Below, piece by piece: positions 18,879-39,039 of a DNA stretch of 42,313 bases. The translations under genes and the position numbers were made by a program. The stretch covers positions 1 through 42,313 of the forward strand of contig CALDCK010000129.1 of NCBI GenBank assembly GCA_937937315.1. Reading direction: 5' to 3'. The number at the start of each line of letters is the position of its first letter. Within the stretch, counting starts at the first letter, position 1. Source of the stretch: an uncultured bacterium. Its GTDB lineage: Bacteria > Myxococcota_A > UBA9160 > SMWR01. Under the pieces are notes generated by a model. That model was not told the origin of the DNA, ran no database searches, and saw only the letters and a list, made by a program, of their open reading frames with translations.

Positions 18879-20765
18879 TCAGCGCCGATCCACCCAGATG
18901 GGAGAGGTCCAGGCGCGCTCCTGGATCGTGGGCGGCACCGCGTCGTCGCAGCAGGACTCCAAGCCGGCGGGGGCTCCCCCCGGAGCGCCGCAGTCCACAC
19001 CGCTCCGGTTGCACACGTACTGGCTCCAGCGGCAGCTGGGGTTCTCGACCACGCGCGCGTAGTAGACCGCCGGCTCGGTGGGATCGTGCTCCGGGTCCTC
19101 CCACACCGCACACAGCTGATTCGAGCCCACGCCGCGGGGCGTGCAGGTCGCCAGGTCCACGTCCGCCTCGGGGTTCGCGCGCCCGGCCACGTCGAGAACG
19201 CGCAGGCGGGTCTCCCCTCCCTCGAGCCAGCCCTTCACGATCTGGATGCGCTCGAGGGGAGTGCTCGGAGCCCCTGCACCGCCGGGATCGCGCAGGGCCC
19301 AGACTGCGAAACGAAGAGGAGACGCGCCGGAGGAGGACCGAAGCACGCCGCCCATGGGCACGCCCGAGGCATAGCCCCGGGCCGCGAAGTCCGGAGCGCC
19401 GCAGAGGTCCTCGGGAAGATCGAAGCCGCCGAAGAAGCGCACGAGGATGCGGGGCCCGCTCGTTCCGTAGGCCTCCCGCCGGTGCATCGCCTCGAAGAGG
19501 GCATCCCGGGAGTTCTCCTCGGCCCAGAGCACCGCGAGCCCCCCGGGATTGAAGAAGGGCATGTCCGGGAAGGCGGGGATGCCGTGGCGCGCGTTCACCA
19601 ATCCCGCCGCATGGCCGATGTGGCGATCCTCGTCCGCCATTCCCGGGGTGGCGAAGTGGGTGTCGGTCGAGCCGACGATCCCGAGCCGGAAGGGGTTCAC
19701 TCCGAGCTTTGCACCGAGGGCGAGGCCGTCCACCAGGGCATCGCGAACGTAGCTCCCGTCGGGAATGGGATCGCCCCAGGCCCGCGGCGTGGCCATCTCG
19801 GACATGATCTCGAAGGGCAGGGTCTCGAAGCTGCACAGCTCGTCCCCCGAGCCCACGCCGCACTCCGAGTCCCCCTTGTGCTGGGTGATTTCCACGAGGC
19901 GTTCGAGCCGCGCCCGGATTCGCGCCGTCCGCTCGTCGAGAGGCGAGCCATCGCTGCGGTTGGGGCCGAACATGAGTCCGCCGCTCACGTTCGAGTTGTG
20001 GGGAATGGCGAGGACGTCGCAGCGCGGCGGGCCGTCGAGACACTCGCGCTCCAGATCCTCCCAGAGACCCTCGGGCGTCGGTGTCTCCATGTAGGTCGTG
20101 GGGGAATCCTGCGCGACCTCGTTGCGGAAGATCACGTTGCGGTGGAGGTTGCGTCCGCCGGGCATGCCGGTCCACTCGTAACCGACGAAGGTGGTGAAGC
20201 GGCAGCTCGGGCTGCGATCGTAGTGCGTCTCGGCGGCGACGCGGGTCTCGCGCCAGGGGCCACGCGCCGCGTCGAGGCAGTGCTCCCCTTCCTCGCCGCA
20301 GAAGGAGTAGCGGCGCGGCCGCTCGCTCGCGTAGATGTGACCGTTCACCAGGGCGTAGCCGAGGCCGGGAAAGTGACGCACCACGCGGCAGACGATCGAT
20401 CCGTAGCCCGGCGCACCGGGGGTCTGGCAGATCTGCGTCTCGCCGAGGAGATCGCTGTGGTCGGTCACGACGGCCCAGTCGAGGGGCCGCCGCAGCGTCG
20501 CCCTGCCGCCGGCTCTCCCCTCCTCCCAGGGCGGCAGCCCGATCGGCTCCCCCTTCGCGAACCGGTAGGCGTCGTCGGGGCCCGGAAGTGTGCCCTGCCC
20601 CCAGGCGTCGAAGGAGAAGCCCGTGTGAACGTGGCTGTCGCCGAAGAAGGGCTTTCGCAGCGGGTCGTTTGCGGCACAGGCCTCACGGACCTCGCTTCGC
20701 TCGAGAGCCGCGGCGGGCGCGGCCGCGACCGACAGCGCGAGCATGACCATCAGCGCGCGCTTCAC
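18879..20765 (-). CDS. DUF3604 family secreted protein (PHP-like)
   Basis: Signal peptide then FFGDSHVHTGFSFDAWGQGT...WAVVTDHSDLLGE...IPHNSNVSGG...GIVGSTDTHFATPG. Confidence 0.9.
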   Translation of the reverse strand: MKRALMVMLALSVAAAPAAALERSEVREACAANDPLRKPFFGDSHVHTGFSFDAWGQGTLPGPDDAYRFAKGEPIGLPPWEEGRAGGRATLRRPLDWAVVTDHSDLLGETQICQTPGAPGYGSIVCRVVRHFPGLGYALVNGHIYASERPRRYSFCGEEGEHCLDAARGPWRETRVAAETHYDRSPSCRFTTFVGYEWTGMPGGRNLHRNVIFRNEVAQDSPTTYMETPTPEGLWEDLERECLDGPPRCDVLAIPHNSNVSGGLMFGPNRSDGSPLDERTARIRARLERLVEITQHKGDSECGVGSGDELCSFETLPFEIMSEMATPRAWGDPIPDGSYVRDALVDGLALGAKLGVNPFRLGIVGSTDTHFATPGMADEDRHIGHAAGLVNARHGIPAFPDMPFFNPGGLAVLWAEENSRDALFEAMHRREAYGTSGPRILVRFFGGFDLPEDLCGAPDFAARGYASGVPMGGVLRSSSGASPLRFAVWALRDPGGAGAPSTPLERIQIVKGWLEGGETRLRVLDVAGRANPEADVDLATCTPRGVGSNQLCAVWEDPEHDPTEPAVYYARVVENPSCRWSQYVCNRSGVDCGAPGGAPAGLESCCDDAVPPTIQERAWTSPIWVDRR

Positions 20766-35932: not shown

Positions 35933-36463
35933 GTGAGCGATCGAGCCCGCGAGCAACGCGCCCTCGAACGACGGGTGGAGGCCCTCGAGGCCCGCCTCCG
36001 GGTCGTCGAGGACGTGGACGCGATCCAGCGGCTGAAGGCGCGCTACGCCCAGCTCGTCGACGCCCGCTACACCCGCGACGGCCCGAAGCCGCGGGCGGAG
36101 CTCGAGCCCATCGCGAGCGACATTGCGGCGCTCTTCTCTGACGACGCAGTCTGGGACGGAGGCGCCGGACTCGGTCTGTGCACCGGCCGCGCAGCGATCC
36201 GCGAGCGCTTCCTCGAGCCCACGCTGCACTTCTCCTGGCACTACTTCATGAAGCCCCGTATCGAGGTGAGCGGCGACGAGGCCCACGGCACCTGGGACAT
36301 CCTCTCGCCCTGCACCACCCGCGAGGGACGGGCGATGTGGATGGCCGGAGTCGAGAAGGACGAGTATGTCCGCTCGGGCGACTTCTGGCTCCACAGTCGC
36401 ATGCAGCTCGATGTAGTATTCATGGCACCCTACGAGAGGGGCTGGGCGCGAAAGCCCACCTGA
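35933..36463 (+). CDS. SnoaL-like / NTF2-fold polyketide-cyclase-type protein
   Basis: DAIQRLKARYAQLVDARYT...DIAALFSDDAVWDGGAGLGLCTGRAAIRERF. Confidence 0.85.
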   Translation: MSDRAREQRALERRVEALEARLRVVEDVDAIQRLKARYAQLVDARYTRDGPKPRAELEPIASDIAALFSDDAVWDGGAGLGLCTGRAAIRERFLEPTLHFSWHYFMKPRIEVSGDEAHGTWDILSPCTTREGRAMWMAGVEKDEYVRSGDFWLHSRMQLDVVFMAPYERGWARKPT

Positions 36464-36476
36464 GCGAGGAGACCGC

Positions 36477-37340
36477 GTGAGCGAAGCCAATCCGAGAACG
36501 GTGGACCCGTGGCGTTTCACCGGGGGATTCCTGAAGGGAGTGCTCTCTTCGCGCATCCCCGAGTCGCCCTCCTACGACCCGATCCCCTGGGCGCCAGTGG
36601 CGAAGCCCCTCGCCGATTCGAAGCTGGCCCTGCTCTCCACCGCGGGCCTCTCCATGAAGGGTGACCGCCCCTTCGACATGGACTTCGAACGCAAGAACCC
36701 GACGCGCGGAGACCCGAGCTGGCGGGCCCTTCGCGCCGACGCGAGCTCCGGGAGCGTCGAGGCCAACCACCTGCACATCGACACGGGCTACATCGCCCGC
36801 GACCTGAACGTCGCCCTGCCCCTCGATCGGGCGCGCGAGCTCGTCGCCGAAGGTCGCCTCGGCGCCCTGGCCGACACCCACTACTCCACCATGGGCTACC
36901 AGGGCAACGACACGACCAGCCAGCAGGAGCAAAGCGCGCCGGAGATCGCCGACCGCATGCGCTCCGAAGAGGTCGACCTGGCGCTGCTCGCCCCGGTCTG
37001 ACCCGACTGTTGCCGGTCCGTGGGACTGGTCGCGCGAGTGATCGAGGCCGCAGGGATCCCGACGGTCACCCTGAACATGATCTGGGCCTACCAGAACATC
37101 GTCGGGATGCCCCGGATCGCGGCGATCGAGCATCCCTTCGGAAGGCCCTACGGCGACGTCGACGACGCCGGCACCCAGCGCGCGGTGCTCGAGGCCGCCC
37201 TGTCCGTCTTCGAGACGGCCAAGGAGCCGGGAGAGATCACGCACCTGCCCTTCGTCTGGCCCGAGACGCCGAAGCAGACGAAATGGCACCCGGCGGAGCC
37301 CTCGCCCATCATCGCCCTGATCCAGAAGCGGCGCGGCTAG
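36477..37340 (+). CDS. Glycine/sarcosine/betaine reductase selenoprotein B (GrdB)-like family protein; candidate selenoprotein with in-frame TGA at 36999-37001
   Basis: ORFs 36477-37001 and 37020-37340 share one frame and are separated only by TGA. Read through: DLALLAPV-U-PDCCRSVGLVARVIEAAGIPTVTLNMIW, a Uxx(C) motif in the expected place of the family. Confidence 0.92.
37012..37030 (+). promoter_or_regulatory. Candidate bacterial SECIS hairpin downstream of TGA 36999-37001
   Basis: CCGGTCC(37013-37019)-GTG-GGACTGG(37023-37029), 7-bp stem (one G-U), extendable by a G-U pair. Apical loop GUG starts 18 nt after the TGA. Confidence 0.72.
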
Positions 37341-37467: not shown

Positions 37468-39039
37468 ATGGCGGAGCAAGGATTCTGGACCCACGCCCAG
37501 CGCAGCCCGGAGAAGCTGGCCCTGGTAGATCCCACCGGCCGCGAGTGGACGCGCGGAGATCTGCTGGCCGAGTGCAATCGGATCGTACACGGCCTGCGCG
37601 CCCTCGGCCTCGAGCGAGGAGACGCGGTGGCCGTGTGCCTGCCCAACTGTGCAGAGTTCTACACCCTCTACCTCGCGTGCCTCCAGGCGGGCTTCTACCT
37701 CACCCCGATCAACTGGCACCTGGCGGGACCCGAGGTGGCCTACATCGTCGGCGACAGCGCAGCGAAAGCCTTCATCGGCCACGAACGGGTTGCCGAGATC
37801 TGCCGCAAGGCCGTCGACGAGATCGACTTCCCGAAGGACGGACGCTTCGCCGTCGGTCGGATCGAGGGTTTCCGCCCGCTGTCGGAGCTCACCCAGGGAC
37901 AGTCGCCCGACCTGCCCGCCGACCGCTCGGCGGGCACGGTGATGAACTACACCTCCGGCACCACCGGCAAGCCGAAGGGCGTGAAGCGCCCCCTCGCACC
38001 GAAGGAGGTGGAGCCGGATCTCATCATGCAGATGATGTCCGTGGTGTGGCAGATGTTCGGCGTGAGTCCCGAGGACGACAACGTCCATCTCTGCGGCTCG
38101 CCCCTCTACCACACCGCAGTCCTGGTCTACTCGGGCAACGCTCTCCACCTCGGGCACGCGGTCGTGCTGATGGACAAGTGGGACAACGAGGGCGCGCTCC
38201 AGCTCATCGAGAAGTACCGCGTCACGACGAGCCACATGGTGCCGACCCAGTTCCATCGGCTCCTCGCTCTCCCCGAAGAGGTGCGCAACCGCTACGACGT
38301 CTCGTCGACGCGGTGCATGATCCACGCCGCCGCTCCCTGCCCGCCGGATGTGAAGCGCCGGATGATCGAGTGGTGGGGGAAGTCGATCTACGAGTACTAC
38401 GCGGCGACCGAGGGCGGCGGAACCCTCGTCACCCCGGAGGAGTGGCTGAAGTATCCGGGCACGGTGGGACGCCCCTGGCCCGGCGCCGAGATCCGCATCC
38501 TCGACGACGACGGAGGAGACATCCCGGTCGGCGAGCAGGGCACGGTCTACATGAAGCTCGGAGAGACGGCGACCTTCGAGTACAAGGGCGACTCGAAGAA
38601 GACGAAGACGAACCGGGTCGAGAAGGACGGCACCATCTACTTCACGGTCGGAGACATCGGCTACCTGAACGACGAGGGCTACCTCTTCCTCTGCGACCGC
38701 AAGATCGACATGATCATCTCCGGGGGGGCCAACATCTACCCGGCAGAGATCGAGAACGTCTTCCTCATGCACCCTAAGGTGGGCGACGTCGCCGTCTTCG
38801 GGATTCCCCACGAAGACTGGGGAGAGGAAGTGAAGGCGGTGGTCGAGCCCGCGGAGGGGGTGACGCCCGACGAGGCCCTCACGGAGGAGCTCCTCGCCTT
38901 CTGCCGTGAGAACCTCGCGAAGTTCAAGCTCCCCCGCTCGATCGACTACACGGATACCATGCCCCGGGACCCCAACGGGAAGCTCTTCAAGCGCAAGCTG
39001 CGGGACCCCTACTGGGAAGGCGTAGAGCGTGCGATCTAG
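37468..39039 (+). CDS. Acyl-CoA synthetase (AMP-binding enzyme)
   Basis: MNYTSGTTGKPKGVKRPL; YEYYAATEGGG; GDIGYLNDEGYLFLCDRKIDMIISGGANIYPAEIE. Confidence 0.95.
   Translation: MAEQGFWTHAQRSPEKLALVDPTGREWTRGDLLAECNRIVHGLRALGLERGDAVAVCLPNCAEFYTLYLACLQAGFYLTPINWHLAGPEVAYIVGDSAAKAFIGHERVAEICRKAVDEIDFPKDGRFAVGRIEGFRPLSELTQGQSPDLPADRSAGTVMNYTSGTTGKPKGVKRPLAPKEVEPDLIMQMMSVVWQMFGVSPEDDNVHLCGSPLYHTAVLVYSGNALHLGHAVVLMDKWDNEGALQLIEKYRVTTSHMVPTQFHRLLALPEEVRNRYDVSSTRCMIHAAAPCPPDVKRRMIEWWGKSIYEYYAATEGGGTLVTPEEWLKYPGTVGRPWPGAEIRILDDDGGDIPVGEQGTVYMKLGETATFEYKGDSKKTKTNRVEKDGTIYFTVGDIGYLNDEGYLFLCDRKIDMIISGGANIYPAEIENVFLMHPKVGDVAVFGIPHEDWGEEVKAVVEPAEGVTPDEALTEELLAFCRENLAKFKLPRSIDYTDTMPRDPNGKLFKRKLRDPYWEGVERAI

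Follow-up and report, generated by a model that had tools for sequence, protein, structure and literature searches.

What is made from a reading frame that is broken by a single TGA codon, and what does the product do? The question is raised by a locus in a 42,313-nucleotide stretch of DNA (the window) from an uncultured bacterium, the features of which are collected in the table. Two open reading frames lie there in one frame, 36477–37001 (174 aa, GTG start) and 37020–37340 (106 aa if the first start codon past the TGA is taken as its beginning), and the TGA is the sole in-frame stop between them; read through, the protein terminates at the TAG at 37338–37340. The first-pass annotation of this DNA had described the two frames in just this way, and the peptide that it quoted across the junction, LLAPV-U-PDCCRSVGLVARVIEAAGIPTV, is correct; its expectation that ordinary gene callers would split the gene is supported as well. 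The SnoaL-like gene upstream terminates with TGA (36461–36463), so the codon doubles as a stop in this genome. Scans for promoters and terminators around the selenoprotein gene found nothing, and an Rfam scan of the window gave no match.

Table. The selenoprotein locus and its flanks: feature, position in the window, strand and remarks.
SnoaL_4-domain gene	35933..36463	+	ends 13 nt upstream of the selenoprotein gene; neighbour common to one relative (L073) only
GAGGAG, ribosome-binding-like	36466..36471	+	5 nt 5' of the GTG start; direct sequence reading
PrdB/GrdB-family selenoprotein gene	36477..37340	+	287 aa with Sec175; GTG start, TAG stop
TGA codon = Sec175	36999..37001	+	opening residue of the U-P-D-C redox motif
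SECIS-like hairpin	37012..37030	+	8-pair stem, 37012-37019 with 37023-37030
AMP-binding acyl-CoA synthetase gene	37468..39039	+	downstream, gap of 127 nt; adjacent in one relative (L073) only

Our answer, to which we give about three chances in four, is that the product is a stand-alone PrdB-like Sec/Cys redox enzyme that operates without PrdA/GrdE in an aerobic heterotroph. The parts of this answer differ in strength. The gene almost certainly encodes a genuine selenoprotein, to judge from the conservation described below, and that it belongs to the PrdB-like kind, orphaned from PrdA, is very likely.

Conservation of the TGA carries the first part. The codon aligned with Sec175 is TGA in all 29 sequences aligned, the window gene included; the 28 relatives among them are 44–75% identical to the read-through protein. 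An alignment at residue 175, for U or C, was the check that had been proposed. Close homologs on 14 of 14 independent GTDB contigs have the in-frame TGA, too. Across the phylum, homologs were found in 79 of 379 genomes, at 147 places, two of which are fragments that fall short of the TGA codon; of the 145 that do reach it, 143 have an in-frame TGA (a hand count from the table of places, the exact aligned codon having been verified in the 29 sequences and in 13 more distant paralogs). Since the query for this search carried Cys where the window protein has Sec, the search did not work against Cys homologs; the two TGA-less exceptions are fused PrdA–PrdB proteins with Cys, in two 12–13 Mb genomes. 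Because the in-frame TGA recurs at all three of these scales, the codon in the window can be taken to be neither chance nor sequencing error, the latter being a doubt that the first-pass annotation had itself raised and that the 29 of 29 aligned sequences counter.

Just 3' of the TGA, at positions 14–32 counted from its T, lies a hairpin with an apical loop of three bases, GUG (37020–37022). Loop position 1 is G in 42 of 42 sequences compared, and position 2 is U in 40. Codons +4 to +10 after the TGA fall within the gene's most codon-constrained stretch in the close clade, where excess codon identity is 0.24 over the hairpin versus 0.07 elsewhere; the codon for Gly183 is GGA in 24 of 26 sequences, while GGA makes up 14% of Gly codons elsewhere. 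The helix hardly varies in the close clade alone. With the paralogs added, it covaries: 94.6% of cells are paired, 13 cells are double-changed, and compensatory pairs of the kinds U-A/G-C/A-U and C-G/U-A occur. The covariation score is 0.313, as against 0.186 +/- 0.014 in shuffles (0 of 500) and 0.126 or less in slid controls. As a caveat, the window sequence folded by itself has a minimum-energy structure other than the conserved hairpin. By its conservation, with GU in the apical loop directly after the UGA, the hairpin looks as expected for a bacterial SECIS element, one that SelB would presumably bind. Together with the conserved TGA, it bears out the original claim that this is a real selenoprotein.

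Does the host make selenocysteine? Its genome, a metagenome assembly judged 84.5% complete, has selA (503 bits), selB (273 bits, truncated where contig C451 ends) and selD, all over cut-off. In the selD gene (L119:2178-4442, - strand), an NADH-oxidoreductase-type domain (TIGR03169) is fused to SelD. Thus the machinery that the first-pass annotation wished to see is present in its three protein genes, but selC, for tRNA-Sec, was not found in the 84.5%-complete assembly by pattern, DNA or neighbour-gene searches. The sole Rfam tRNA-Sec match over the cut-off (G000:C411:12705-12792, L017; 48.1 bits, barely above it) was rejected, ARAGORN calling it tRNA-Ser(TGA), and seven weaker matches were rejected as other tRNAs. 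A tRNA-Ser(TGA) thus passes the Rfam gathering cut-off for tRNA-Sec as a false positive, by which automated selC calling would be misled. The gene that flanks selC in relatives was located, on C441, with no tRNA there. In each of 20 relatives, a pattern search picked out a tRNA-Sec-like place, and the reversed control yielded none; ARAGORN reports tRNA-SeC in all ten of the relatives' loci checked, and Rfam agrees where checked. Given the completeness of the assembly, the absence is best read as a gap.

To which family does the protein belong? It matches PF07355, the GRDB family, at 41.7 bits (gathering cut-off 22), over the C-terminal part of the model only. The best NCBI model is that of PrdB, TIGR04483 (143.6 bits, E 6e-42), which falls short of the equivalog cut-off of 300 bits; genuine PrdB controls score 422.6 and 439. 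The GrdB model, TIGR01917, gives 61.3 bits (E 8e-17) against a cut-off of 602, and TIGR01918, for the glycine/betaine/sarcosine/D-proline selenoprotein B subfamily, gives 59.9, slightly under its cut-off of 65.45. At the active-site column, where PrdB has Sec or Cys, the protein has Sec within UxxC; Cys178 closes the motif and a further Cys179 follows directly. The PF07355 family and the UxxC motif were therefore rightly named in the first reading. 'GrdB-like' was right as to family, but the protein is nearer to PrdB than to GrdB, is PrdB-sized, and matches only the C-terminal half of GrdB. A tree places the window gene within a clade of orphan proteins (support 100/97) and genuine PrdB in a separate one (100/100), the branch of which is 2.1 changes per column long; additional paralog clades are present.

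Several of these paralogs deserve a word. The same genome carries a second, divergent PrdB-like selenoprotein, 37% identical (G000:C278:8285-8971, L092), with its own TGA, the same hairpin and a P450 gene nearby. Four other genomes (G348, G149, G305 and G125) have five or six PrdB-like places each, some perhaps fragments: an expansion of orphan PrdB-like selenoproteins in the lineage. The Cys-containing exceptions (L101:9137-11680 and L102:9083-11512, both - strand) are single-ORF PrdA–PrdB fusions near genes resembling two glycine dehydrogenase (GcvP) halves; in the profile scan, L101 scores 779 bits with PrdA TIGR04480 and 439 with PrdB TIGR04483, and L102 is near-identical to it by eye.

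No Grd or Prd partner lies near the gene, as had been noticed at the outset, and PF09338, the PrdA/GrdE family, was not found in the rest of the 84.5%-complete assembly either, while two prdA plasmids, used as positive controls, were matched. The genes on either side had also been offered as a clue to function, and this idea fails. The SnoaL_4 gene is possibly co-transcribed with the selenoprotein gene. Among 28 close loci, of which some are duplicates, no neighbour family is shared by more than 7; among 27 adjacent genes on the same strand, a given Pfam domain occurs in 3 at most; and the neighbourhoods of the distant paralogs are likewise not conserved. Because neighbours differ from genome to genome, the SnoaL and acyl-CoA synthetase genes tell us little, and we rejected the neighbourhood as a guide. 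The host is aerobic and respires oxygen, since its genome has heme-copper oxidase subunit I genes. The window also carries P450, FMO-like, acyl-CoA ligase and sulfatase genes, which fit an aerobic heterotroph, and a large DUF3604 protein (18879–20765, - strand; 536 bits).

How might such an enzyme work? In D-proline reductase, the pyruvoyl group of PrdA holds the substrate while the PrdB selenolate attacks it, and a thiol then cleaves the selenoether to leave a selenenylsulfide, in a scheme itself termed hypothetical (PMC10298544). In the window gene, SelB with Sec-tRNA would recognise the hairpin 3' of the UGA and insert Sec175, and the product would act without a pyruvoyl partner, PrdA or GrdE. 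With no PrdA there is no Schiff-base activation, so the substrate should itself be electrophilic; the selenolate of Sec175 would attack it. Attack of Cys178 (or Cys179) on the selenium would then free the product, with a selenenylsulfide left behind, and the enzyme would be regenerated by a cellular dithiol of the thioredoxin or glutathione type. This would be a PrdB-type half reaction performed in an aerobic heterotroph. A substrate unable to form a Schiff base has a precedent in fluoroacetate, for which a GrdB-related system has been proposed, albeit with a GrdE-like partner still present (PMC10838667). We consider a reductive Sec/thiol mechanism of this general kind moderately probable, and reduction of a carbon–heteroatom bond in particular only a tentative suggestion. 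The role probably lies in detoxification or in redox handling, and not in a Stickland fermentation that yields energy. More speculative still is the thought that the stand-alone PrdB-like clan of aerobic Myxococcota-type bacteria, with as many as six places in one genome, might represent Sec-based carbon–heteroatom cleavage without a pyruvoyl subunit, a new aerobic activity derived from the Stickland reductases.

The strongest competitor is a general thiol or selenol oxidoreductase, or a peroxidase-like antioxidant acting on peroxides, disulfides or mixed disulfides, that merely borrows the PrdB fold. Thiol-dependent redox selenoproteins typically have a UxxC(C) motif, and PrdB is listed among them in PMC1088965; the host is aerobic, and the copies are scattered and have no operon partners. 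The AlphaFold2 model is confident (pLDDT 93), yet a PDB search with it found no match at E <= 0.001, thioredoxin-like folds included. PDB sequence searches returned nothing significant, and PHROGs nothing. Genuine PrdB and the window protein, moreover, share Asp79, His98 and Asp109, which suggests that a pocket for a small molecule has been kept. We regard the antioxidant as possible, and as the less probable choice. The chemistry of the stand-alone PrdB-like enzyme is drawn from PrdB because the fold model has no PDB match and the literature searched holds no biochemical study of any orphan of the PrdB-like kind.

Could the protein instead be an ordinary subunit of a reductase for D-proline or another amino acid, with a pyruvoyl partner that is unassembled or too divergent to see? 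PrdB is the best curated match, UxxC and other residues are common to both, and the genome is, after all, incomplete. One relative does have a full-length PF09338 (GrdE-like) gene (G323:C348:4509-5726, L114); it contains an in-frame TAG and could be a pseudogene or contamination. Against this, PF09338 is absent from the other 19 of 20 relatives, including all 13 of at least 90% completeness and at most 5% contamination; the score is half the PrdB cut-off, where genuine PrdB reaches 423–439 bits and occupies its own long-branched clade; and real D-proline reductase does occur in this phylum, as the PrdA–PrdB fusion with Cys. We think this reading improbable. As for the TGA being a true stop or an error in a decaying pseudogene, the lack of selC in this one assembly speaks for it, and it is refuted, with a negligible chance left to it, by the TGA that every aligned relative has at this codon, by the conserved protein sequence before and after it, and by the covarying hairpin that follows directly.

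If the stand-alone PrdB-like enzyme is the right reading, how unusual is it? Less so than the first-pass annotation implied. Ocean surveys since 2005 find PrdB-type UxxC selenoproteins abundant (PMC1088965, PMC2398784, PMC9402790), and in open-ocean surveys they rank among the most abundant (PMC1088965, PMC2398784): 42 genes in one study (PMC1088965), 235 Sec and 110 Cys forms in another (PMC2398784), and 6.4% of selenoprotein genes in a third (PMC9402790). The passages covered of these papers contain no analysis of partners or neighbourhoods of PrdB-type selenoproteins, and a literature search on selenoproteins of Myxococcota found none. The window protein is thus a member, in a defined subfamily, of a kind already known; what the present data add is its orphan status, the covariation of its SECIS, and the observation that Cys forms are all but absent from the lineage. 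These proteins, so abundant in seawater, carry the name of an anaerobic clostridial enzyme. In one lineage, at least, the partner without which D-proline reductase cannot work is missing, the subfamilies are distinct, and Sec is almost universal in proteins that standard gene callers would split, so the label 'proline reductase' is probably wrong for them. They amount to a common selenoenzyme class of aerobes.

Set beside known systems, the window protein resembles the ocean PrdB-type selenoproteins (surface-water abundant and mostly Sec) in UxxC and at the level of the family. GrdB, GrdF and GrdH (TIGR01917, NF040794, NF040795; PF07355) match it in their C-terminal half and share UxxC, but much more weakly (E about 1e-16); the first 200 profile positions are missing from the window protein, as is a GrdE-type partner. 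A 'glycine/sarcosine/betaine reductase selenoprotein B family protein' of aerobic Alphaproteobacteria (Roseomonas, L108) likewise stands alone in an aerobe, but is CxxC, with Cys in place of Sec, 29% identical and on a very long branch; on its plasmid, that gene (L108:4887-5795) directly adjoins one for SelO. Closest is PrdB itself, a subunit of the enzyme that converts D-proline to 5-aminovalerate. The annotated PrdB of Terrisporobacter, Peptoclostridium and Ligilactobacillus plasmids is homologous over roughly residues 31–261 (31–36% identity), and its TGA, at residue 151, aligns with residue 175 here. PrdB has a PrdA-type partner, whereas the window protein has none in the assembly. The window protein also differs in its additional N-terminal part, with VDPWRFxG, in an insertion around FERxxPxxG, and in the TKWHPAEPSPII tail at its C-terminus. 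Around the selenocysteine, PrdB reads TAG-U-GTCHRS and the window protein APV-U-PDCCRS—UGTCH in the one and UPDCC in the other, with UxxC common to both.
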